Part shown: piece by piece, positions 4,657 through 64,000 of the stretch
How positions within the stretch are numbered: position 1 is the stretch's first letter
Layout: every line of letters starts with the position of its first letter
Assembly: GCF_010015585.1 (NCBI RefSeq)
Contig: NW_022985095.1
Coordinates: forward strand, 184,241 to 248,240
Direction: 5' to 3'
Source of the DNA: Eremomyces bilateralis CBS 781.70
Taxonomy: Eukaryota; Ascomycota; Dothideomycetes; Eremomycetales; Eremomycetaceae
Length of the DNA: 64,000 bases
Notes under the pieces: generated by a model
The model's input: only the letters and a program-made list of their open reading frames with translations
The model's database searches: none
What the model was told of the DNA's origin: nothing
Program-made: the position numbers and the translations under genes

Positions 4657-5273
4657 GGTTGCCCATCGTCTGAGGGAGAACGAGGAGTGGGGAAAAGAAA
4701 GAAATCAAGACTCTTGAGTGATAAATCGCAAGAAAGGAACGCTTCAGACTTAAAGCTGTATGCAAGAGAGGGAGCTCAGCTGCCCAAGCCATGGCCGGGC
4801 TGAAGCGCAGGAGATGGCGTCGAACAATATGATATTGAATGGGTCAGGGAGACGCCACGATTCTTCCGGCAGATCTCCAATTGCATTCCATTAGCTTTCA
4901 TAGAAGCAAGCTGGAGACATCGTCGCTCCATGATGAGAGATGCCTAATTTCCCCTGGGGCTATCGCTTCGACACATCAGTAATCATTACATTTATGAATA
5001 GTGGAGGAGAGAAGGTTTGGGGAGCGGGAGTTATGGTATCTAAATACCTGCGGTACGGTCTCTTAGACTGGAAGGGGTATCCATATAGTGGGTCAGGTAT
5101 CCGACATGCAATATATCATGAACACACTCTTAAATCTTAATGTTGCCGATGCTGATCTTGTCTCTACTGGGAACAATGTTAACCAAAGAAGTGTATCGAA
5201 CATTGACCATATCACCATTAAGCCTATCATGGCAATCATATCGTAAATCAGGTACACATACAGCTACAAACCC
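4657..5273. other. Intergenic promoter region
   Basis: About 0.6 kb between the start of the FAR-17a-like gene and the 3' end of sec20 (both on the minus strand). No coding signal beyond short chance frames was seen. Confidence 0.5.
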
Positions 5274-6600
5274 CTATAGCTCATCCTTCTTCCGAGCCTG
5301 TCCCGCCTGTCCCGCCTGCTCCTGGCCCTCCTGCTGCCCCTGCTTCTCCGCCTGCCCCTCTGGCGGCTCCTCCATCACCCTCTTCTTCGGATTCCGCGGC
5401 TCGTCCGAGTCCTGCAACACCGTCCCGTCCGCCCTCCGAACGGGTTCCGCCTGCACTTGCGCTCCCGCCTGCCCCCCTTGCTGCTGACGAGATTTCTCCG
5501 CCATCTGCCCAACTCGCTGCGACATGGACCCGCGGACGCTCGGATCTTCTGGATCCTTTGCTCCGTATCCGCCGGCGCCGGCACGCATGAACGGCTGGGG
5601 GTCTTGATCCCGACGAAGGTGGGGTAAGCCTTCGGTGGCGCTGGGTTTGACGATGAGGGACGAGGAAGGGGAGGAGACCGCGATTGAGCTGCTCTGAGCG
5701 GAGCCGAGGATTCCGGATGCGGAGAGGAGGTAGGATGAGAGGCGGAGGAGGAGGAAGAGGGGTTGGAGACACAGCCAGTAGATGGGGCTCCAGAGGAGAC
5801 GGCGGAAGACGAGCCAGAGGACCGTTCCGAGGAGGAGGTAGAACGTCGTCTGTAGATACCAGCTATCCGTCTTCGAGGTCCGTAACAGCGACTTGAGCAG
5901 CGTCGACGACGACGACAGCAGGCTGTCCAGGTCCGTATAGTTCTCCGCTAGCCCCCGCAGGTCCCGGCTCGACTGTTCAAACACTTCCTGTGATGCGCGA
6001 GATCTCTCCACCTCCGATTGCATCAACTCCAGCGTCCGTTGCAGGGCGTCGGTGACTTCGCTTTGGGCGGTCACGCGCGCGTCTTCGTGCGGTTGGCGCT
6101 CGTGTCCGCGTCGTGGTCGGTTTGACGTAGGGACGTCCGGTGTGATGGCGAACCGTTGCTCCCGCTCCTTCTTGCGGGCGATCTCGTCGTTCCGGAGCGC
6201 TTGTAGTTGCGCGCGTCGGAACTGGCTGCGCGTGCTGGGAGGGGTTTAGTCCGCTATATGAGAAGAAGATGGGGTGGTGCGGAGCGTACCTCTTCAGATC
6301 TTCCCGTGACCGGGCGACCAATGACTCTAATCGCGCCTTCTCCCTACTGACGGGCGTCTCCCGACTATGCGGTCCTTCTCTTACTGCACCGGGCAAGTCT
6401 TCGACGTCTTGGCCGACTAAGTCGAGGTGTTCCTCGTTGCGCTTCAGACGATCGACGATGTCAGGACGTAGGGCGGTGCGGGGCTGCGGACCTAGTTTGT
6501 TCAGGCGATGGACGAGGTGGAGGGTCTCTTTGTTGCTGTCGATCAAGGTCTGGAGGCGGGCGTCGAGGTTGGTGCAGATGGCTTGCCAGGTGGAGAGCAT
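5274..6600 (-). CDS. sec20: Sec20-type ER SNARE with C-terminal KDEL
   Basis: Two exons, 6600-6290 and 6234-5274, joined across a 55-nt intron (donor GTACGC, branch-like ACTAAAC) to give 423 residues. The start is the ATG at 6600 (MLSTWQ); an in-frame upstream extension to 6714 looks like leader sequence. Residues 1-105 are helical. The second exon begins with a charged coiled-coil stretch (LRNDEIARKKERE), then the SNARE-like helix (VTDALQRTLELMQSEVERS to LLRTSKTD), then a transmembrane segment (TTFYLLLGTVLWLVF) with a second hydrophobic stretch close behind. After the membrane comes a lumenal tail of about 165 residues, rich in Gly, Gln and Glu, ending KKDEL. This architecture is that of Sec20, the ER t-SNARE subunit for Golgi-to-ER retrograde transport, where yeast Sec20 ends in HDEL. 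A second acceptor 9 nt downstream would remove three residues (TRS). Confidence 0.88.
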
Positions 6601-50915: not shown

Positions 50916-53272
50916 ATGGAGCAGCAATCACTCCCTCACCGACCGAAAGAGCAATCGGCTCCGATCCAGAGCCAAGTTCCAGACACAAATCAAGGAGGTG
51001 GAGGCATTCTGGAGGCAGCCAAGGATCGTGTCGAACGATTCAATCCCATATTGCTGGGATACCTGAAGAAAGCATACGAGGAGCTGGGAGAGAGGAAGCT
51101 ATGGGAAGTTCAACATGAGTCTGCTGTCCCGGCCGCTGGGTTCGACAAAGCTCTGGAGTATTTCTCCTCCCCCAAAGCCGATGCTATCAGGGCCCCGAAG
51201 AGTGTTGACCTGGGCTACTCCATGGCGAACTACTTCATATCGTCAAGCCATAATACATACTTGACTGGGGACCAACTTTTCAGCGACTCGAGCACCGACG
51301 GGTACAAGAACGTAAGGACCTTGTCTGGTGCCTGTGTTGCTGTGTTTCATTCGCTCATCCTCCCTCTAGGTCCTTCTGCGCGGTTGCCGCTGCGTAGAGA
51401 TTGATGTGTGGGATGGTGAGGAGGACAGCTCATCCGATTCAAGCTCAGACAACGAGCCGCCTCTAAAGCCAGTCGCTCATGTGAAGACAGGCCTTCGTGA
51501 GAGGCTCAAGTCCAAAATCAAAGAGACAGCCGAAAAGAAATCCCCGGCGAAACCCCCGTCGAAATCTCCACCAGGTGAGACGGCCTCGAGCGCAGGGCAG
51601 ACGCCCTCCCGTTGCCGCTCGAATTCCTCTCGCGTGGAGCCACGGGTGTTGCACGGCTATACCGCCACCAAGGAAATCCCATTCCGTGCAGCGTGCGAAG
51701 CGATTCGAGACTATTCGTTCGTGGCCAGCGACCTTCCTGTGATCATTTCCTTGGAAGTGCACACCTCGCATGAACAACAGGAGATCATGGTCGAGATCAT
51801 GGAAAGCACGTGGAAGGGCATGCTCGTCGACCTGCCCGACGATGTCGGGGATAACACCTCTCTTCCCGTCCCGAACGACCTGCGGAACAAGATCCTAATC
51901 AAGGTGAAGTATACCCCCACGGAAGCTCAGAAGCCAGGCGCGGGCAGTGGAAAAGCGGGAGAGGCGCAGCACGAAGGATCACCCGAGGGCACTGAGGAGC
52001 CTGCAAAGAAAAGCAAGATCATTGCAGCGCTCTCTAAGCTCGGTGTCTACACAAGAAGTTATCACTTCAAAGATTTCCTGCAGCCAGGTATGCCTCGTCT
52101 ATCGCACCTTACCGTGGGCAGACGTCGCTAACTGCCGAAATAGAGGCTGCTATTCCAACCCACATCTTCTCACTTTCTGAGGGTGCTCTGATGGAAGTGC
52201 ATGAGAAAGATCCTAAGGGGTTGTTCGGTCACAACCGCCAGTTCATGATGAGGGCCTACCCAAAGGGTACTCGTGTGTCATCTTCTAACTTGGATCCGAT
52301 TCTCTTCTGGAGACGAGGGGTCCAAGTCGGTGAGTAGATGTCATACCCCGAATTATTATCACGCTGATCTCGCCAGTTGCCCTGAACTGGCAACGATGGG
52401 ACAAGGGCACCATGTTGAACGAGGCCATGTTTGCAGGGTATGGCGGCTGGGTGCTGAAACCAGCGCCCTTCAGGAGTCATATATCCAGCGATAAAGGGGC
52501 AGCGCTTCAGAAGACTCCTTCCGTTCCAACGACCGCCTTCTCGGCCATCGACTTATCGATTACCTTCTACGCGGGACAGGACATTCCCTTACCCAAGGAC
52601 GAAAAGGAGAAGAGCTTCGATCCATACGTGAAATGTGAATTGCATGTCGAGTCGGAGCCTTTGCCGGGCGGTGAAGGAACAAAGGCCAAGGACGGCGAGC
52701 TCAAGAAGAAGACCAAGACGGCGAGCGCGGGCACAAATCCCGATTTCAAGGGCGAAACCCTTGCCTGGAGCAATATTTCTGGGGTCCTGCCAGAAATGGC
52801 TTTCGTCAGGTATGTGGGATTTCCCATCATCAACAAAGCTTGGGTTTTCCAGTCTTTCATCCTGGCAGTCTACTCTGCGAGAACCATCAATACGCTTTTT
52901 CCATCTCTTCCCTACCCTGTAGCTTTGTGTCCAAGAGTAGAAGCACGCAGCGAGAGTCTCAAGGATATGACTTCATCTATTGCATCCTGTCCGGGTCCAC
53001 GTGTGACTGTGTAACCTTGCACTAAATTATCGTTTATTGCTTCAAGATGTACTTCCGAACTCTGCCTAGGGTCAAGAACCGCTAACAGAATTTGCAGGTT
53101 CAAAGTCATGGACAACGATAAGATTGGACGGGATGACTTCGCAGCCTGGGCATGCGTGCGACTGGATCGTCTGCAACCCGGTTTCCGGATCGTTCACCTC
53201 TTTGGTCCCAATGGTGCCAAGACGAAGGGGATCCTCCTGATCAAAGTCGACAAAAGGTTCAGAGTCAGTTGA
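50916..53272 (+). CDS. Phosphoinositide-specific phospholipase C
   Basis: Five exons: 50916-51311, 51370-52087, 52144-52329, 52377-52809 and 53098-53272, giving 635 residues. Introns are 58, 56, 47 and 288 nt. The enzyme cleaves PIP2 to diacylglycerol and IP3 at membranes. The X domain shows YFISSSHNTYLTGDQL with the first catalytic His, VLLRGCRCVEIDVWDG with metal ligands, and PRVLHGYTAT with the second His. A Lys/Ser/Pro-rich linker sits between these motifs (about residues 150-195). The Y domain carries TRSYHFKDF, NRQFMMRAYPKGTRVSSSNLDP and VALNWQRWDKG. A C-terminal C2 domain follows (LSITFYAGQDIP, FKVMDNDKIGRDDF). The region before the X domain is only about 95 residues, so no PH or complete EF-hand domain is present. 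The 5' ATG at 50916 (MEQQSL) is preferred. Confidence 0.92.
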
Positions 53273-56216
53273 AAAGCCACTTGTGTCCCACACTCTGTGA
53301 AGTATATCTGCAGTGTTCGGAGTGTTGCAGACACGTTCATTTGAACGAGATAAGTTCTGCTCTTATTAATGTGACCATGAAACATGTGCGTTCCACCTCT
53401 GGCAGGCACCTGGAAATGGGAAATGTCAGTGGTATCACGAGTATTAAACCCAAGGGCATTTGGCTGGCCTGAAGCTTGTCTAGATGACTCTCGTTGCACG
53501 AAGGTTGTCAGCCCAAAGATCTGGCGCCGTGGAACGCTCGCAGAGAGATCGTTCTGTCATATCGCACCGAGAGAACGTAATCACATAGAATTACACGGGC
53601 AATATAATCCAATATCCGTGCGATATGACACTAAGCTGTCACACGCCAACTCCATCCAATTCAGGCGAGGTCACTCAAAGGCGCTGTGCTTCGACAAGTG
53701 TAGCTCATGATGTGAGCACCTTTCTACTACATCATCCAGATTCCCATCTGGGGCATGATCAGCTCTGGCCACGTTGATCTTGAACGTGCTGCAGCAATCC
53801 GCTCCTACAGCGTTCGTCCCACTCTATCTCACCGGTCCGGATAACAAAAGCTGTCCTGCTTTTCTTGAATCTTTCAACTCCCTGGATCGGCACAGGGAAG
53901 GTCACCTACCTCATACCTGAGTTGCTTTCAGCGCGCTAACCGGTCTGGAAGACGATGAACGGGCTGACCATTGCTCTCTAACTTTAGAGGCCACTGGATT
54001 GAAGATTTCGTCCGAAGAGCTACGAAACACGAGGCCACCGGCTTGCTATTGAGTAAACAGGGATGTCTGATGAGTTTCAGGTACATCCCAAATGGTCCTA
54101 TTAAACTGGAGTGAATCCACTGGTATGTAAGGCTGGATGGATTATGCGTGCTGATCGGAACGACATGCCATATTCTCAGCGGCAAGCTCGCCTGGAAGTG
54201 CATGAGGTGCTTCAGAAAATACCGATCCGAGCCGCAATCATGATTATTCCCCGTCCGATGGGGTGATGGGCTAGTAGTACATATTGTACCACCCCATCCT
54301 TATGGGACTATAATCATATTCGACCAACAGCAAGATGCGTACCAGATCGATAGGGATAAGCGAAATTTTGAGACACGCCAGTCCTAGACTGCAGGTAGTT
54401 GACTAAGGCTGACTTTGACAGGCCAAACGTCCGCTAACACATGGGCATCGCGTTACATCGTAAGTGGTGTTGATCTGGACCTAGTGCTGCAGCTAACCCG
54501 ACGAATAGGAGTATACAAAGTCCTTCTCGAAGGGCACTACCACAATCCATCCAAGTCCCCGGGGGAAAGACGGTGAAACTGATTGATGTGTCCTATATTC
54601 GGCGCCAGGAGAATCCAATCGAATAGCACCACCAGTCTTCTTGATATTGCATACCCAGGATTCGGCTTAGCGAGCGGGGACTAGCAACCGGTCTGGAGAT
54701 ATCGTGATACCTTCGGACCCATCAATGTCGACTGCCAACGCGATCAGTGAATGTCGCCCCTTACATTGTAAGCTCAGATCAATCGCATAGGCAGCATACC
54801 GTAGTCTGTTCCATAGTAGGCCTCGTGGTGCAAGGGTCGTCGAAATATGTCTGCTTCGATCGTCCATGATACCAGACGAATCCTCCATGACTCACCGCGG
54901 CAGAAAGTTCTAAAAAGACATATATTTCCACCAATCTATGTCAATTCATAGCCTTCAATCAAGGTCAAGGACTCACTCTAGGGACTCAGGTTATTCTCGT
55001 ACATTTGGCTATTGTGGATACATCCCACAGCGGTTCCGTTTGACCGTTTCGTGTATCGTTACCTCTAGGTCAGTGCATCTCGTGGCATTTTGCAATTAGG
55101 GTCTATCACCAGGAAGCCGCTCGCTACTCTCAGCCATTCAAAGACGCGTATTTGAGGCGGGTTGATAGAAGCTAAAAACTTCGAGAAAGGTGCGATTACA
55201 CACTACGGTAGTCTGTACCCCGCTAATACGCTCTCTCAGTGTGCGATCAGAGAGTTCGGACTGGAGTGGGATGCGAATGTTCTCACCCTTGTAGGGCAGA
55301 AATGTGATAGATCATATTGCGATGCATCATGCCGATGGATCCAGCTACCTGGGCAGCTGGGATACCTACTAACGAACCACTTCCATCCTGCATTGCCGAC
55401 AGATCGGCTGACCAGGGTATGGTGCATATCATGCCCCTGACCCTGAGACTCGTTTACGTCCTGGAGGCTGGAAGGGAGATACCTTGAGAGCCGCAATATC
55501 GGAGTAATATCAATGTGAATGATCGAATTCGAAAGACTGAGGATTTACATCAGCTTCTCCTCACTATAAATAAATGGCGTTGGCGCAGATGGATTAGCAG
55601 TTTGGTAAGGAGTTGCCAGTAAGCCAAACATATCATACACAAGACTGCTCGAGTATCAGGACGCATATCTCGACCAACCTAATGGATGTGATAGTGAAAC
55701 CCCTGTCAAGTTACGGTCACTGTGTGGACTACTTACATGTCCGCCATGTATGAACCTTGCCTGCTTGTGTCTCCATCTTTGGAAATGCTGTCCAGGTGGT
55801 CGGGACAATCTGGTGGATCAGTACACATCCAACGCTAGGTAATATGACACAACGTTTTTTACAACGATTACACATATTAGTCGAGCCTGCCGCGCTATCC
55901 ACTACCGTTCGCATTCCGCCAGAATGCGTGAGGTATCACAACTAGACGATCGAAGCAAACGCAGCATGAAGCGAAGTCGAACCGGTGTAGAAAATATTTT
56001 GCGCCTTTCATGATATAGCAACATGCGAGCTATAAATGTAGCTTGACTTCCCAAGTCCAACAGATGTCTCGACAACCACCAATTCAACCTTTGTCTTTGA
56101 GTCTTGTCTTTGTGCTAATAACCCATTCATGCGATCGGCCTTTCAATTGCAAAAGCAATAATCCAATCCCTTCCCCCTTCCGCAGTACCCCTGAGTTTCC
56201 TTCAGCTTAATTCGCA
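53273..56216. other. 2.9 kb gene-poor interval
   Basis: No supported gene. A possible exon pair is visible on the plus strand near 54.42-54.58 kb: a short coding-like stretch (SANTWASRYI), a good intron (GTAAGT donor, CTAACC branch, AATAG acceptor) and a second stretch ending KGTTTIHPSPRGKDGETD. No domain or start could be attached, so it may be a remnant. Confidence 0.4.
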
Positions 56217-56508
56217 ATGGCCCAGAATTTGCGTCACCTTCAGATGCTCGAACAGCTGGGCATCCAGCAATTGCTGGAGTTGACCGTCGGTGGTGGGGTC
56301 GAGGGCGACGATTCAAGCGAAGGGGCTGAAGACGGCGTCGTTCAGGTCATGACGGTATATATCTTGCCCCGAGTATGATAGAACACTGAGAAACTGATCA
56401 TGTCCGCAGATACCCGGCCGAAAATGCCCGACGTGTGGAGCTAAGGGCACAACCGTTTGGGTCATCCCGGGAAAAGCCTGCCCGGCTTGCGGAACAGTTG
56501 TGACCTGA
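56217..56508 (+). CDS. Small double-CxxC zinc-ribbon-like protein
   Basis: Two exons, 56217-56354 and 56410-56508, joined by a 55-nt intron (donor GTATAT, acceptor CGCAG, phase 0), giving 78 residues. The first exon encodes MAQNLRHLQMLEQLGIQQLLEL, an amphipathic helix, followed by an acidic linker. The second exon encodes two knuckles, KCPTCGAKG and ACPACGTVV, spaced by TTVWVIPG, which together look like a four-Cys zinc ribbon. Neither exon alone makes an ORF above 60 codons. The family is not recognised; a protein- or nucleic-acid-binding role is inferred. Its compact structure and intact splice signals in an otherwise gene-poor stretch argue that it is real. Confidence 0.65.
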
Positions 56509-57092
56509 TAAGTCCAGGTAGGACAGTCGAGCCTTTAGTTTCAGGGGAAAGCTAACAAGTATGAAAGCGGAAAACTCCAAGTTGAGAACTCCTCGAGAAT
56601 AGGCGAGGGATTGACCAAGGCCACGGACGTGAATGGAGAGGAACTTTTGCATCAGTCTGGTCCTATATGGCCATACGATATTTTCTGTATGATGCATCAT
56701 TAGGATTGTAATTCAATTTCAGAAGCTACACTTACCTGGCCTTGTTTCATGTCGCTTCACATTGAATCTCGTCACTGGTGTGCTCGTAGTGCAAAAATCC
56801 CCCCGAATATGCCCTCCAGAAGTCGAATCCTATCCAAACCCAGCCGAAAGATGGTCTGAGAAAGTCCAAGGAATGGAGTTTCCGTAGATGTGCATGTCCG
56901 TCTGCGTGGGACGCCTATGATCTTTCTCTTGCTCGGCGTGATGAAACCAGGACATGTCATTATCGTAAGTGTAGGTTTGGTTTTCGATCCGACCAATCAA
57001 TTGTAGGGACGCGTCTAAACTCAATAGGTTCAGACGCTGCGCATGAGCCTAAAGAATCCTCATCAGGGTCTAGCCAGCTTTGAGGGTAGATA
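56509..57092. other. Intergenic, no gene seen
   Basis: Short frames only, with no recognisable domain or splice-linked coding signal. Confidence 0.45.
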
Positions 57093-57644
57093 TTATTGGT
57101 ATTGTGAACAAACATGGAATGATTCGGGGGCTATAGCCCCCACCAAATGGTCACCGCCGGTACCTAATCCTGGAATAGATCCACGATGAGCTTCTAGGCA
57201 TATTGGTAACGGGATAACATCTTCGAGATCCGGATTCAGGGCCGGGTCCAGGTCACTCCTGGGGTGCTGCTCTGGAGCTGCGAATGTCGGAAAGTCATGG
57301 ATATCCGCGTCGCCCTGAACTCCTGAAGGATAGGAGACCTGCTTTTGAGATTTTTCGGTTCGATTATCATGTTGAAATGTTTCGCTATTCATGTTGAGAT
57401 GAGACGCGATTTCCACAGTGGGAGAATCTTGTCGTTCAACTTGCCGTCCCGGGCGGGATTCATGCAGCTTCTCAGATATACTATGTTGGTCTCGGTTCTG
57501 GGGTATAGATTGGTCCACGGAAGCGGTCCTTACTCGTCTTCTTGACCCTCTGGGATGGATATCCCAGGCTGTAGTCAACTGATCCGGGGTATCCTTCCTG
57601 TTGATGTATTCTCTTGTCTCAAGGGTATTGGGATGAGACGACAT
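57093..57644 (-). CDS. Hypothetical protein, low support
   Basis: A minus-strand frame; from the internal ATG at 57644 (MSSHPNTLE) it encodes 183 residues. It is hydrophilic, rich in Ser, Asp, His, Pro and Arg, and without hydrophobic segments or motifs. The upstream in-frame part (to 57803) has a different, hydrophobic character and may be unrelated leader. No family is recognised, there is no splice evidence, and the surrounding DNA is gene-poor, so this may be chance or part of a larger broken gene. Confidence 0.3.
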   Translation of the reverse strand: MSSHPNTLETREYINRKDTPDQLTTAWDIHPRGSRRRVRTASVDQSIPQNRDQHSISEKLHESRPGRQVERQDSPTVEIASHLNMNSETFQHDNRTEKSQKQVSYPSGVQGDADIHDFPTFAAPEQHPRSDLDPALNPDLEDVIPLPICLEAHRGSIPGLGTGGDHLVGAIAPESFHVCSQYQ

Positions 57645-59580
57645 GTCGAATGAACTGATACAATTTGGAAAGACGTGTGGATTTGCTATAGTTCGCATAG
57701 AGATGCATAAAATGAAGCGATGATTGATGGCGATTACTCCAGTCGACATCGAGGTGCATGGTATATATGCGCAGACTCCAATCAGTATTGAGACAGACGG
57801 CACTGAGCTCTAGAAACATAAAAAAGTGAGGCGATAGTGAACAGCACAAGGGTTAATTAAATTTTGGGGGGACTTTGAGAACGTCGGAACAGATCATCCT
57901 CTTTCACAATACATACCACAACACGCTTGGACTCTTGCCTGTGGGATGCCTGTCGTTCGATTCAAGTCTACTCTCACGCCGAGAAGAGCTGGTAGACCAT
58001 TGACACAATCGGTGGATCTGGAACTCACCTACATTGACTTTGTTGTCCATCAAAACGATTGGCAACATTGCTATTGTCAAATGGATCGGTGGTGTTAGGG
58101 TAGCACCTCCAATCTGACTGCTGCAGTGGCATCTTAGGAAGGCTAGGGCATTGCTATTCACAGCTGAGATCGAACGAGTTGGTTATGAAAGTGAGGCAAG
58201 AGATGGCAAGCTCTCGGCCTCTCGCAGGATATTGCAACGTACAGAGATTGCGCCTTGGCAACGTCTACATCCATCAGACAAAGGTTAACCTGGGAAGGAG
58301 ACCACCTTGCACTAGTATCGAGGCGCGAATTCTGACACTGATGGCGGAAAGGAAAAGACTTTGATAGATATACGAATGGCATACAGATAAACTATTAGTT
58401 CCATTTAGACGGGTGAATACTGAATAGATTCGGGGTTCTCAGTGGTCCCGTAGTCCTCGATATCGTGGTCTCGAGGGAGTGTCGAAAGGCCACCGAGTCC
58501 GAGTTTCTGGGTTGGAGATTTGCCGATCAAGGAAAGTACATGCGAAATTGAAATGACTACGGGGAGATTTGCAAGGAAAACACCGACTCTGATTGTGAAG
58601 AGCATATGAATGTGGTCGAAGCTATTCCTTCATTGGCTTGAGGAACTAAAACAGCGGTGTCAACCTTGGAAAGTGAGGCGGGAGGGCTTCAACAAGACCA
58701 GGGGAAAATCGTCGAAACATGAGAGGATCGGATTTAATGAACGGGGATGGAAGTGAATTCGTCTATCTAATCAGCCAGCCACAAACCTCGATCTCGTCGG
58801 TACCAAATGTTCCTCGATCGTTGTTGTACACCTATTGAACGGAATGATTTGAGTTGAATGTTGGACAAGAATTACGATCAGGAATTCATATCCATATCAC
58901 GTGGGACGTGTCTCGTCATCATTATTAATCATGTTGACTCCAAGCCTCCAACTCTCCAAGCAAGCCTCTTAAAGTCGAATCAGACCACTTCAAAACGTCT
59001 CATAGAAACATTATTAGGGTTCGTTTGGCTTACACTAACATTAACAGAAAGGGAATCTGATCTAATTCCGCGGCAAGAATTCTCGGACCAAAATGCACCG
59101 CTGAAAATATGCCTTCGGCCGAGATCTGCTCTCTATGTCCGTAGGGGCCATTTAGTTCGATGACCGTTTTTGATGGCGTCCTTGAGGCTTATCTCAGCTT
59201 GGGCTCAGACACTACCCAAGCCATGACCCCTAGCTAAGCTAAACCGTAACCAGATTAACCCCATGTTTAGCGTAGAATCTAGTCACGTGAGTACAACTGT
59301 CTTGTGTAACGTCTGAGAAATTACCTCAGCAAGCTCAGGCTATTTGTGGTCGTGCCAAGGCACCGGAGCGGACTATACCTAATCGGTAAGTCACATGTGC
59401 TCCTCGAACAAATAGCCTGAGGATTCTGTCCACCTATTTCGGCGTGTGCCGTGAACTTTCATGCCAAATAGAAGACCATCTTTAACTCCATTTTTATCCA
59501 CAACCACATGGTGCATCATCAATTGAATACATCCATTCGATTCCTCTGGGCTTTTTCCATAATTGATTGAATTTTGGGCC
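57645..59580. other. 1.9 kb interval left of the DUF6589 gene
   Basis: No supported gene. A 66-codon minus-strand frame at 58405-58605 has one hydrophobic segment (VGVFLANLPVVISISHVL) and a plausible polar C-terminus, and might be the last exon of a membrane protein. Phrases resembling DNA-transposon termini (TAGGGTTCGTTTGGCT near 59016 and TAGGGGCCATTTAGTTC near 59143) occur here, and an inverted repeat lies at 59197-59221. If the DUF6589/helicase pair is mobile, its left end may be here. Confidence 0.35.
59197..59221. repeat. Short inverted repeat
   Basis: Arms GCTTGGG and CCCAAGC with an 11-nt loop, about 360 bp before the DUF6589 gene start. Confidence 0.6.
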
Positions 59581-62308
59581 ATGTCGGCCCAAAACCAGCG
59601 TCGTCAGAGTGCGCGGTTGAACCCGCCCATCTTGCCTCCCGCTCCAAGTCCTCGGCATATTGCTGCTTCAAACACATCTAATGCACCTCGTCAGAAAGTA
59701 AGAAGGTCTCAAAGACGCAGTAAAGCGCAGAGAGTAAACGAGATATGCCAATTCATGCGGAAAAAAAAAATTACATTACGAGAATTTATCCATGTCTACG
59801 CGACGACTCAAGGGTCTGGTGGTTATGGAGAGCGCCCTGCCACGCGTGCCAAACGGCTCGCCGAGGCCGTCTACGGTCAACCAGAGGTCTTAGACGCGCT
59901 GCAAGAACACCCCGCGTCTGGTGCGACAGGAATTGTCACTATAAAGGGTCTGAGGAAGGAAATGAAGGCACTGGAAGAAGCCGGAGGTATGTTTAGTGCC
60001 TACCAAGTCGACCGTGTCCAAGAGAGAACTTCACCTGCCGGCATGGGAAGGGAGAAAGAGCCAGAGGGACAGAAAGTCGAGGACTACGAGCGTATACTGG
60101 GCGATATGCAGTTTGGGCAGATGTACGAGCAAGTTAACACTCATGCTCCTCTTCTATGTGGATTGCTTAATGGCATCATGGCGCCCAAGAGAGAGAGAAA
60201 AGATCGATCACTACGGGACCCTGTCAAATTCAACCACAGGATTGCGATAATCACGTCGATTCTCTGCTATTCTCGGGCGTCGGAAGGGAGCAACAAGTTT
60301 CCCCGCGTATTTGGTGCCTTTCTGCACTCAAATGGCGTGAAACGGCGTATCCTCGATCTTCTTCACCAGTTTGGGGTTTGTGAAGGCTACAAGGGAGTCC
60401 ACAGACATCTCGAAACCGTGGCAGAACAAGCAAAGGCATCTTCACCGCCTCTCAGCATAGACGTCGACTGATTGCAACTAGGGAACGGTCCGTCGATATG
60501 GTCAGCAACTAGATGCCTGTGTTGTGTATGACAATTTCGACTATCGAGAAGGTATTAAGCACCAGCTCATTTCAAATCACGCAGAAATGCGCTCTGTGAC
60601 AACGGGAAAGGTTTTCAGAGGCGCCGATATCCCCTCTGGTGGTTTAAAGCAGTCAATGCTGCACCGCGAGGTTCCACTTACAATAGAGGATCTTCTATAC
60701 TCTCCTGGTGCAGCAGTATATGACGAGACCGCCGCCAAGATTGATACCTACTTTATAGCGGAGGCAATTCGATCGGTATATCCACTCGCGATCAAATCTA
60801 TCTTCTCTACGTCCGGTATACCTTACCCCGCTATGCCAACAGTCGAGTTACTCGAGCTTCGAAAGACAGACAGCAAGACGCTCGGTCCGATTCTCTTCAA
60901 CGAAGGTACTCTAGATGGCTCCTACGAGGTTATAGAGAGCATCTACAAGCACCAATTCCAACTAGATAATAAAGAATTCGACAACCGTCTGTTCTTGGCG
61001 TTTGGCGATCAAAAAACCTCTTCACTTATCCGATCTATGCAGGCTGAGCAAGTCGACGCGTCTATGGCGTATGATAGAAAAGACTGGCTGATAGGAGTCG
61101 CTGCTCTCTTTCACCTGCGTATGAATTTTCTATGGCTCATGCAAAAGACACATTACGGAAACATGGAGCAACAGGACGCTTCAACTCTCTATCACAACAT
61201 CAACTTCTGGGGACGAAAGAATATTCCAGCGGACCGTGCAGCTTTTCAGGTTCTAGAAGAGCTAGTGCTTCACAGTTTCGACGCTCGAGTTGTTGGACTA
61301 CTTTATACTCGCCTCGAGCAGTACGGCATCGATATCTCCGATCAAGAGGGGGTTGACAAGGCAATTCGGAACATGGATACTAGAGGGTTCATGGAACTGG
61401 TGGAGGATGTTCGCAGATCCGCATTTGAGCCGGAAGCCTGGCGACCATCGAAGGAGAAGCATACCAACAATACAGTCGATGAGGAGTTCCTTAGTCATGC
61501 TCGATACCTTCAACAAATGGTTGTGTACAAGACCTTGAAGTACGGCATCAAAAACGGAGATATAGGACTCATCGACCGAGTCATTGGTGTCTGTTGCTTT
61601 TACTTCGAGGGGACTGGACAATCAAACTACGCATTCGAAATGCTCTATCTAAAGCGGCTCACTAGCACCAAAGCTTGTGACAAGGAGCTTCGGCGCGCAA
61701 TACTCTCGAATAGCCTCGTTAACCCGCATGGCTGTCGGGACACCTGGCAAGAAGTCGATCGTAGCCTTGAATATCTGAACCTGGAGCTGAAAAGAGAGCT
61801 TTGGGCCCGTCGAACGTCGACTTTCGGATTGGATGCTCTGTTCAAGACTACCTCATTAACGGCAGAATATACTGTTTGTCTACGCAGGGCAGTAGAGGAC
61901 GCATTCGCCCGGAAGGGCAACTCCACACATTCTGTGCCCTCCGCGATGGATGATATTCATACATTAGCCTTTGAGCTGGCATGCGACTCGATTAAATTTT
62001 ATGACGGCGGCAGGGAGGCAAGACATCAAGCACCAGACATACATACGATCGGGCTCGGAAGAGTAGCAACTCAAAAATTGGAGGTGTTTAATGCAAAGGT
62101 CATAAGAGATGAAGATCGAATAGTCGTACCACCTTATGAGAGGAGAGGAGCCACGGCTGATTTAGATCCTAATAGCGACACGATGGCGATATTGGTATGC
62201 GCATGCTCATGGAGTTTCTAGTCTCGTGCTAACAGACGTCGCCAGCCCTTGGCAGACAGAGATGTAGCCCATGAATGGGGTTTACCTTCGGACGTCGAGT
62301 CAGAGTAA
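59581..62308 (+). CDS. DUF6589-type protein (possible mobile-element protein)
   Basis: Modelled as three exons, 59581-60417, 60482-62194 and 62246-62308, about 870 residues. The last intron (51 nt: GTATGC donor, CTAAC branch, CCAG acceptor) is strong and adds LADRDVAHEWGL. The first junction is weaker: a stop in the downstream frame ends exactly at a good acceptor (CTGAT branch, CTAG at 60481), but the donor at 60418 (GTGGCA) is poor, so a frameshift is possible. The N-terminal third is basic and helical. The rest carries the landmarks I associate with DUF6589: VVYDNFDYREG, PSGGLKQSML, FIAEAIRSVYP, ILFNEGTLDGSYEV, LAFGDQKTSSLIRSMQAEQ, WLIGVAALFHLRMNFLW and NINFWGRK. The spaced Asp residues in YDNFD and GDQ recall an RNase H-like fold, but that is inference. 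It is tail-to-tail with a RecQ-like helicase, 65 bp apart. Confidence 0.72.
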
Positions 62309-62373
62309 CCTATCTATAATGTCCACTCGCTGTGGTTGTAGCGGCTATTATTCCCTTTCTTGTTGCGAGGGCT

Positions 62374-64000
62374 TCACCTTGCGTTAGAGTCTAGAACGCC
62401 GAGGACGACCCGTTTCGTTTCTACTTCCCCCCCCCGGGTTAATATGGGACGTTTCAAGGCCCGATTACCATCAATTACACCTGATACCTCATTCTCGCCG
62501 TCTTCGAGAACACCTGACCTAGCAGAAGAATAATCTACGTTTGTAGATGTCATCAACCTACCCATAGATGTAAATGACGAGTTCGCTGATACTATGGTCA
62601 TTGGTAGGGTAGGTAGATGGGAAGAGCACGAGGCTGACACCTCCCTTGCCTGAGCAATGATCCGCTCTAGCGAGGAAACGTACTCTTCTCGCTCACGCGC
62701 GAGTAATACTCTTCGTTCCTGATCAGGAGTTATCAGAGTCTCTGCTTCTATAGACAATCTTCTCTTCCGACCTCTGTGTTGAGATACTTGCTGTTCGACT
62801 GTGGGATGAGCGTGTTCGAATGGCGCCCTTCGTATTAGAACTTGAGCTGCCGCTGCGGTTCCTGGTGTATAGCGTCCGGGCCAGTTCCTCACTACATAGG
62901 ACTTGATTTTATTGAACTCTTCGAACAGCTCATGGGAATGGTCTTTCATCCAAGCCGATTTCGTAAACTTCTCCAACTCAGCAGCCGAGCGGATGTTCGT
63001 ATACTCTCTCGATATTGATATCCACTCTTCCTTCGGCGCGAATAACCGTGCTGAGAGTTCTGGCTTCATCATCCGATGTGCCGAATTCACAACGTTATCT
63101 CCCCAGAGGGTCAGGCGGTCATAAAATGCGCCGGATGCCGTTCCAGTCTGGGGCTTACGAAGACCAGTTGTGGTATCCCATGGGAAAGGTACCGCCCGCG
63201 CCAGATCTGGGTTACAGACATTACAGCACTCCTGCGGTTCAGGAGCCGGTAACCTAGATGCTGGATCCGATAGACTCTCTTGTAGCCAATCCATTAGGAT
63301 TCGGCGTAGGCATGCGGATCGATTAACAAGATTGAATAGCGCCGGACAGTCATCGTGTAGGTCTGTTCGGCGTTCTCTCTCCGTTTTGCGTCGGTGCTGC
63401 TCTCCTGGTATATCATATTTAATGGCGTCTACGGCAATATCCGATTCATCATCTAGGATGTCACCGCCCACTCCTGGATCAGCAGAGTACGACTGAGCTA
63501 ACCGGCTCGTGTTGGAAGGCCGTCTTAAACACGACGGCGTCTGAGTTCTGGATAGAAGCGCCGGTCTTGTCGATAAGATCCTGTCACCTATCGCCCAACT
63601 TTCCACCAAGAAGATGGCCTCTCCTTTAATGCCAGCCATCCTAGCTGCACGGCCAAATCGTTGGATAAGGACGCATAAGAGTCGTTCCAGAGGGAAGCCG
63701 TATTGGACAACTCGTGTGACATCCGAGAGATCTACCCCCGTTCCTAATGATTCTGTGGCCACCATAATTCGGATCTTAGAGTCCGCTTTGGAAAACTGGT
63801 CGTATATAGCATTCTTGTCGTTTGGAGTAGTGTGTGAATGGTAGACCTGGATAATCTGCTTGCAGTCGTGGGCCCCGACGGCCCCAGCTGAGAGTTTCTG
63901 TAGCCAGCCTCGCAGACATTCCGCACATTTTTGGATATCACGTCGGGAGTCTATAAAGATTATAGTCTTCGGAATTCGTTCCGGCGTTGGCGAGCCGTTT
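62374..64000 (-). CDS. RecQ-like helicase, C-terminal part (truncated by window)
   Basis: The minus-strand frame is open from the right edge to a TAG at 62374-62376, giving about 541 visible residues; the N-terminal helicase domain lies outside. The second RecA-like domain shows KTIIFIDSRRDIQKC (motif IV), QVYHSHTTPNDKN, IRIMVATESLGTGVDLSDV (motif V) and LIQRFGRAARMAG (motif VI). A RecQ-type zinc subdomain follows: ACLRRILMDWLQE, then about 25 residues later ECCNVCNP. The remaining ~320 residues are basic and family-specific (PWDTTTGLRKPQTG, LTLWGDN). Enzymes of this fungal group differ from cellular Sgs1/BLM and often occur in multiple copies, some near telomeres. Motif integrity suggests a functional gene. 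A run of ten Cs lies just inside its 3' end at about 62428-62437. Confidence 0.85.
   Translation of the reverse strand, partial: NGSPTPERIPKTIIFIDSRRDIQKCAECLRGWLQKLSAGAVGAHDCKQIIQVYHSHTTPNDKNAIYDQFSKADSKIRIMVATESLGTGVDLSDVTRVVQYGFPLERLLCVLIQRFGRAARMAGIKGEAIFLVESWAIGDRILSTRPALLSRTQTPSCLRRPSNTSRLAQSYSADPGVGGDILDDESDIAVDAIKYDIPGEQHRRKTERERRTDLHDDCPALFNLVNRSACLRRILMDWLQESLSDPASRLPAPEPQECCNVCNPDLARAVPFPWDTTTGLRKPQTGTASGAFYDRLTLWGDNVVNSAHRMMKPELSARLFAPKEEWISISREYTNIRSAAELEKFTKSAWMKDHSHELFEEFNKIKSYVVRNWPGRYTPGTAAAAQVLIRRAPFEHAHPTVEQQVSQHRGRKRRLSIEAETLITPDQERRVLLAREREEYVSSLERIIAQAREVSASCSSHLPTLPMTIVSANSSFTSMGRLMTSTNVDYSSARSGVLEDGENEVSGVIDGNRALKRPILTRGGEVETKRVVLGVLDSNAR

Follow-up and report, generated by a model that had tools for sequence, protein, structure and literature searches.

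Transposons that bring their own helicase include the AcademH group, which was reportedly described by Kojima in 2020. According to the passages cited, Academ transposons carry a RecQ helicase (PMC3627910), and AcademH occurs in Basidiomycota, Ascomycota and Mucoromycota (PMC10799480) and leaves target-site duplications of 9 or 10 bp (PMC10045372). A RecQ helicase is also described for KolobokH, which is given there as found only in fungi, and for the rhodophyte Kolobok-1_CCri, in which it lies on the complementary strand (PMC9587614). RecQ genes are described as a subtelomeric family in fungi too, and Helitrons as having neither inverted ends nor target-site duplications (PMC4522978). Helicase-bearing transposons are thus already known, and what appeared to be new in the DNA stretch of Eremomyces bilateralis CBS 781.70 studied here was a candidate transposase of the DUF6589 family, with an 8-bp duplication and CACGTG-linked sites. 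The stretch analysed (the window, 64,000 nucleotides) occupies positions 184241-248240, at the right-hand end of contig C29 (NW_022985095.1), and all results refer to this single genome of 26.6 Mb in 62 contigs, which are numbered C1 and so on below. The original prediction, made from the letters of the window, had proposed that a DUF6589 gene and a RecQ-like helicase gene at its end form a two-gene mobile or subtelomeric module.

Inverted ends, 8-bp duplications and derivatives

Our results pointed, with a probability of about 0.86, to a DNA transposon of the cut-and-paste type, some 6.0 kb long, which has inverted ends, encodes a DUF6589 transposase and its own convergent RecQ-type helicase, and occupies sites near CACGTG. 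The copies of family 1, to which the window copy belongs, lost similarity to the window within 0-19 bp of position 59321, and when they were placed side by side, differing flanks were followed by a common TTACCTCAGC. The complete family-1 copy at C26:193172-199187 was 6,016 bp long; it opened with TTACCTCAGCAAGCTCAGGC at 193172, closed at 199187 with the inverse of that sequence, had the same TTACCTCAGC... ends and was flanked on both sides by CTGTGAAG, an 8-bp target-site duplication. Family 2 was represented by C26:172418-179075 (6,658 bp, ends TTATCTCAGCTTGGGCTCAGAC) and family 3 by two copies of about 6.05 kb on C1 (ends TAGTCTCAGATACCTCAG).

Searching the genome with the window end yielded 50 matches, which, taken together with a helicase-side search, included the shortened derivatives described below, and 30 end pairs were tried genome-wide. 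Perfect 8-bp duplications were found in 23 of them, one pair (copy b of family 3) agreed in 7 of 8 bases, and six pairs, among them copy a of family 3, had none. In all 23 perfect pairs the agreement was 8 bp long, and no pair matched at a length of 5-7 bp or of 9-12 bp; the 23 duplications differed in sequence, so there was no fixed 8-bp target. The perfect pairs comprised 18 in family 1 and five in family 2, and the list in which these stand as 18/18 and 5/5 holds only pairs that had already matched, the failures standing outside it. The seven family-1 pairs that join two contigs are weaker evidence than the 11 on single contigs, because they were recognised partly by the shared 8 bp. The 15 family-2 ends consisted of that on C26, which was paired separately, seven with a candidate second end in the fetched locus (four perfect, three not) and seven without a testable partner, and in family 1 another eight single ends were left unpaired.

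The duplication length bears on the possibility that the element is a plain AcademH member whose aspartate-aspartate-glutamate (DDE) transposase happens to match Pfam DUF6589. AcademH joins the same two functions, a transposase and a RecQ helicase, in fungi including Ascomycota, as far as the cited passages go (PMC3627910, PMC10799480), and this explanation is less likely than not; it has to face duplications that were 8 bp long in 23 of 23 cases and 9 or 10 bp in none, against the 9-10 bp given for AcademH in PMC10045372.

Filled and empty sites were also compared, as the original prediction had suggested, and the ends, the 8-bp duplications and precise insertion into a known site were found, the empty sites being paralogous ones of the same genome (in a family-2 end for the window copy, in a family-1 end for a nested copy). 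The right end of contig C37 held a helicase-side element end with an adjoining TTTCTCAG, the reverse complement of the window duplication. The window and C37 flanks, joined with one 8-bp copy, matched four family-2 ends that are intact; these alignments of 238-241 columns had 82-92% identity and ran across the junction. The window element therefore sits inside a family-2 element, which has left an end at window positions 59189-59320 and a helicase remnant on C37. For the nested copy the empty site was found with 98.7% identity.

Gene-less derivatives also carried duplications. Four elements of 2.02 kb (C27, C3, C15, C4), as well as another on C50 that a nested copy interrupts, lacked about 4.0 kb of the interior. 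They retained positions 1 to about 1181 and 5181-6016 of the C26 copy, so that the DUF6589 domain was missing along with most of the helicase, and the longest stop-free stretch of the C27 element was 117 amino acids. Each of the 2.02-kb elements had its own duplication and was thus mobilised in trans. Smaller elements of 0.67-0.78 kb were found as well. The C27 and C3 elements were identical over 2,021 bp, with 99.85% identity for C15 and 99.1% for C4, and the window copy differed from C37 at 1 of 3,124 positions, from C28 at two and from the C7 copy at seven. This near-identity indicates that the family was recently active.

Several copies had unusual forms. The differences between C7:1296898-1301577 and the window were mostly C to T (7/9 and 6/7 in two overlapping comparisons), with two TAG codons in the helicase, which hints at repeat-induced point mutation or a similar process. 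Miniature copies on C22, C14 and C3:1252k (L037, L038, L039) had a doubled end, one end being repeated from the inner arm outward; each moved with its own 8-bp duplication, which implies that the composite end is functional. Insertion of one family-1 copy into the end of another, near position 87-96 of that end, recurred on C17, C20/C50, C21:41767-41969, C28:31228-31431 and C1:1824675-1824921, either as separate insertions or as one composite that moved. The copies L060, L061 and L062 (C8:974267-976494, C5:1113972) lay between inverted copies of one sequence (GGATATCAACCATCCTCTAG), and may represent either insertion into a palindrome or an element whose palindromic ends are extended.

Each family-1 end also held an inner inverted copy of its outer part (CTCAGGCTATTTGT ... 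ACAAATAGCCTGAG at the left end of the window copy), and one strand of such an end can, as modelled, fold into a long hairpin. The DNA folding z values of family-1 ends were -4.88 for the window and -4.70 and -4.73 for the helicase-side ends of C26 and C35.

Insertion sites near CACGTG

CACGTG started within 60 bp of the element end at 13 of the 18 family-1 sites, with 0.34 expected (0.019 per site, from 4,130 CACGTG genome-wide; binomial tail 3e-19), the 60-bp limit having been chosen after the distances were seen, which counts against the figure; an excess of this size does not hinge on that limit. The family-1 flanks were mutually unrelated as far as detectable, except for the C15/C27 pair. 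In 500 dinucleotide shuffles of the flanks, the mean was 0.67 sites and the maximum three, and 7,106 bp of control sequence near the sites contained two CACGTG. Seventeen of the 18 sites qualified when CAYRTG was allowed. Three of the eight unpaired family-1 ends had CACGTG within 60 bp and one had it at 72 bp. The distances were 17 bp, 19 bp (five times), 24-25 bp (four times), 30-34 bp (five times) and four larger values of 43-59 bp. These sequences show that family 1 strongly prefers sites near CACGTG (an E-box), which in most cases lies at a distance of 17-34 bp. At C20/C50, the copy nested in the end of another family-1 element lay 17-19 bp from CACATGTG, and the window insertion lies near CACGTG inside a family-2 end, so that the same rule may also explain the nesting.

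The association could reflect a general preference for open promoters without any tethering by a basic helix-loop-helix (bHLH) protein. E-boxes lie in promoters, many transposons favour open chromatin, and the CAYRTG variants at the sites would agree with this. CACGTG, however, ranked first in an unbiased hexamer count near the sites, made with three ends mislocated, and was found in 15 of 45 flanks, against 0-3 of 45 for each of seven other palindromic hexamers. The distances clustered at 19, 24-25 and 30-34 bp, family 2 had CACGTG within 60 bp at none of its five sites, and the E-box close to the window insertion belongs to another transposon. We therefore consider the promoter explanation unlikely, though it keeps some weight.

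The two genes and a possible mechanism

The genome contained 18 DUF6589 matches, and helicase searches gave 22 matching stretches with the window part and 43 with the full C26 helicase. A convergent helicase match lay within 4 kb of 14 of the 18 DUF6589 matches (C35, two on C26, C17, C20, C44, C28, two on C7, two on C29, C37 and two on C1). The four unpaired matches were that on C12, a C3 fragment beside a run of N and short fragments on C24 and C5. The DUF6589 proteins of family 1 had 89-94% identity to that of the window, and those of the other two lineages 27-33%; helicase stretches were 54-100% identical within family 1 and 27-38% identical over longer stretches of the other lineages. The convergent pairing recurred in three lineages that are about 30% identical, which indicates that the pair was kept across deep divergence. 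A mobile two-gene module with a helicase partner was thus borne out within this genome by the ends, the 8-bp duplications, the filled and empty sites and the repeated convergent pairing.

In the C17 copy (L003, L018), the DUF6589 protein was 89-92% identical to that of the window and the helicase only 65%, which looks like a mosaic or uneven rates, and the helicase frame of the related C35 and C50 copies had 946 amino acids, compared with 834 in C26.

That DUF6589 is a DDE transposase is suggested by invariant acids and by context. Residues D17 (six rows), D176, E386 and H211 (seven rows each) were invariant in every covering row of an alignment of three lineages. The two motifs singled out by the original prediction, YDNFD and GDQ, were both found, the first Asp codon at 60530-60532 and the GDQ Asp codon at 61007-61009. 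As for the RNase H-like core which that prediction proposed, the conserved D, D and E agree with it, and no RNase H fold came from structure prediction, which gave two poor models. These AlphaFold models had mean values of the predicted local distance difference test (pLDDT) of 44.8 and 53.9, with nine shallow rows; in them D17 followed a strand and E386 lay in a helix, although confidence in the strands was low. A search of PDB sequences with the DUF6589 profile gave only four chance matches to capsid proteins (E 0.74-0.97). A Pfam scan of four DUF6589 proteins or pieces up to E 10 gave PF20231 in all of them and otherwise one sub-threshold LexA match (E 0.071).

The helicase resembled RecQ in sequence. 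The complete C26 helicase matched 37 PDB sequences, of which 34 were named as RecQ-family members (Q1, Q4, Q5, WRN, BLM, RecQ) and three only as ATP-dependent DNA helicase, and in three complete helicases only DEAD and Helicase_C were above the cut-off. More distant helicase matches of 26-29% identity at C14:270233-270841, C15:595683-596270 and C49:24819-25661, in frames of 1217, 592 and 1626 amino acids, may be helicase genes of the host itself.

In the mechanism that we propose, DUF6589 would act as a DDE-type transposase whose metal ligands are D17, D176 and E386, bind the hairpin-prone ends, and excise and join the element with an 8-bp stagger. A host bHLH-type protein on CACGTG would tether the transposition complex and so give the preferred distances. 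The helicase would be an accessory, which either opens the self-complementary ends or, like BLM, pushes repair of the donor gap towards template copying and thereby restores the element. After P-element excision, host BLM steers repair towards synthesis-dependent copying; PMC8951532 deals with BLM in this kind of repair. Aborted gap repair would produce internal deletions, with which the 2.02-kb type is consistent.

Several observations weigh against a DUF6589 transposon of this kind. A long decayed DUF6589 copy at C12:219600-226500 (L049, L087) had no helicase neighbour that we could find, and no relatives of the DUF6589 protein were found in viral and prokaryote contig collections. The six end pairs without duplication were L042, L074, L075, L077, the C8 pair and copy a on C1; the second ends of L074, L075 and L077, all of family 2, had been picked by a loose pattern, and the flanks of the C8 pair were inverted instead of direct copies. 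The folding z values of family 2 were -2.54 on one side and +0.31 (no hairpin) on the other, so that the hairpin is a trait of family 1 that is only partly shared. Besides D17, D176, H211 and E386, the DUF6589 alignment had 15 other invariant columns of D, E, H, K or R, which makes the D17/D176/E386 triad suggestive, not singled out, and no proof. A Foldseek search of the PDB with the better, still poor, DUF6589 model gave no match below E 0.38.

Mobilisation by the helicase in the manner of a Helitron, with DUF6589 as a passenger, is very improbable. The helicase is present in all three lineages, and our literature search gave no function for DUF6589 and no mention of the name, both of which would suit it. 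However, exact inverted ends with 8-bp duplications require double-strand integration with a stagger, no Rep nuclease exceeded the cut-off in a scan of three complete helicases, and the candidate catalytic acids sit in DUF6589; the Helitron-like candidate was rejected on these grounds. A Starship-like carrier was rejected too, as there are no genes besides these two in the complete element and the Pfam scans contained no recombinase domain.

The subtelomeric reading, in which the module would resemble telomere-linked helicases or Y-prime elements, and which was also part of the original prediction, drew on the many copies at contig ends and on the fungal RecQ family cited above (PMC4522978), and is scarcely credible now that it has been refuted for the sites examined: three successive TTAGGG units were absent from the whole assembly, copies lay well inside C26 and C1, and six contig-end pairs inside copies (C29/C37 for the window, C35/C44, C50/C20, C7/C11, C37/C35 and C38/C3) joined through matching 8-bp duplications, which makes these ends chromosome-internal assembly breaks in near-identical repeats, not telomeres.

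The window copy and its place among known transposons

The features of the window copy are listed in the table. If the copy has the length of that on C26, about 1.3 kb of it lies off the contig.

Table. Positions of the element, its ends and its genes in the window
Feature	Position	Strand	Basis or remark
Transposon copy, visible part	59321..64000	.	Remainder off contig; helicase-side end is C37:178915-179205
Left (DUF6589-side) terminal inverted repeat, starts TTACCTCAGCAAGCTCAGGC	59321..59432	+	Copy boundaries, end search, DNA folding z -4.88
Target-site duplication CTGAGAAA	59313..59320	+	Second copy on C37 beside helicase-side end (L065)
132-bp end (TTATCTCAGC...) of family-2 element, the insertion target	59189..59320	+	CACGTG 31 bp from insertion point
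Open reading frame upstream of the DUF6589 frame	59581 (ATG)-60471	+	296 codons, list of open reading frames
Presumed exon 1, DUF6589 gene	59581..60435	+	285 amino acids; end inferred by comparison with family 2
Probable GC-AG intron, 46 nt, phase 0	60436..60481	+	Comparison of window, C17 and family 2
Exon 2, DUF6589 protein, 579 amino acids	60482..62221	+	Pfam PF20231
Candidate catalytic residues D17 (60530), D176 (61007), E386 (61637); invariant H211 (61112)	exon 2	+	Alignment
RecQ-type helicase, C-terminal 541 amino acids	62374..63999	-	Helicase_C; N-terminal part beyond contig end

Exon 2 matched DUF6589 with E 2.3e-65 (221 bits, cut-off 27), and the upstream reading frame had no match in the Pfam scan. 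The stretch between the two is read as a short, probable intron, because the split of the DUF6589 gene was identical in C26 and C17 and lay at the same place in family 2, which is 30-32% identical. Helicase_C (PF00271) was found in the helicase frame with E 2.4e-14, and the frame is cut by the window end, which is the contig end C29:248240. The plus-strand and minus-strand genes met tail to tail, as had been predicted; the distance between their stop codons had been given as 65 bp and was measured as 152 bp (the DUF6589 stop ends at 62221 and the helicase stop begins at 62374), and in the complete C26 copy it was 75 bp. The gene-poor tract noted before the module was found as well, with no open reading frame of at least 250 amino acids in 52132-59562.

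These results offer a concrete function for a family known to Pfam only as one of unknown function. With copies whose ends are mapped, one of them complete in a single contig, the transposase activity and the purpose of a transposon-borne RecQ helicase become testable. Some of the scattered multi-copy RecQ genes of fungal genomes may be transposon genes and not telomere genes. The preference for CACGTG at set spacings, if true, would mean that a transcription factor motif determines where a eukaryotic DNA transposon lands, which bears on promoter evolution; such targeting is, to our knowledge, rare. Only tentatively, and against the odds, would we extend the proposal to DUF6589 as a DDE superfamily of its own, with an 8-bp stagger, a RecQ partner and, in this lineage, hairpin ends, which would be widespread wherever DUF6589 genes occur, and of which this lineage would take a host bHLH protein on CACGTG as its landing mark, even where the motif is part of another transposon or, as CACATGTG, of the element's own ends. 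Among the matches listed in the literature search, none described this element or such a target preference, although a published description may exist.

Fungal telomere-linked RecQ helicases and Y-prime elements share with this element the multi-copy RecQ genes, whereas here the genes lie inside a transposon at chromosome-internal sites. KolobokH and Kolobok-1_CCri combine, as described, a DDD/E transposase with a RecQ helicase, and in Kolobok-1_CCri the helicase strand is opposite, as it is here. Kolobok inserts at TTAA, and none of the 23 duplications was a TTAA target. The hAT and P superfamilies produce 8-bp duplications, and their usual members are not known to have a helicase partner. 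They resemble the present element in the duplication length, in the DDE chemistry that we propose and in having internally deleted and miniature derivatives, but no hAT or P domain was found in the Pfam scans of DUF6589, and a helicase partner is present here. The hAT signature C/DxxH is placed between the second D and the E (PMC9587614, in the passage cited); in DUF6589 the invariant H211 was preceded three residues earlier by A or G, not C or D. AcademH, compared here by description and not by transposase sequence, is the closest known system, since it also pairs a transposase with a RecQ/superfamily 2 helicase in fungi, and it is the length of the duplication that sets the element of Eremomyces bilateralis apart from it.

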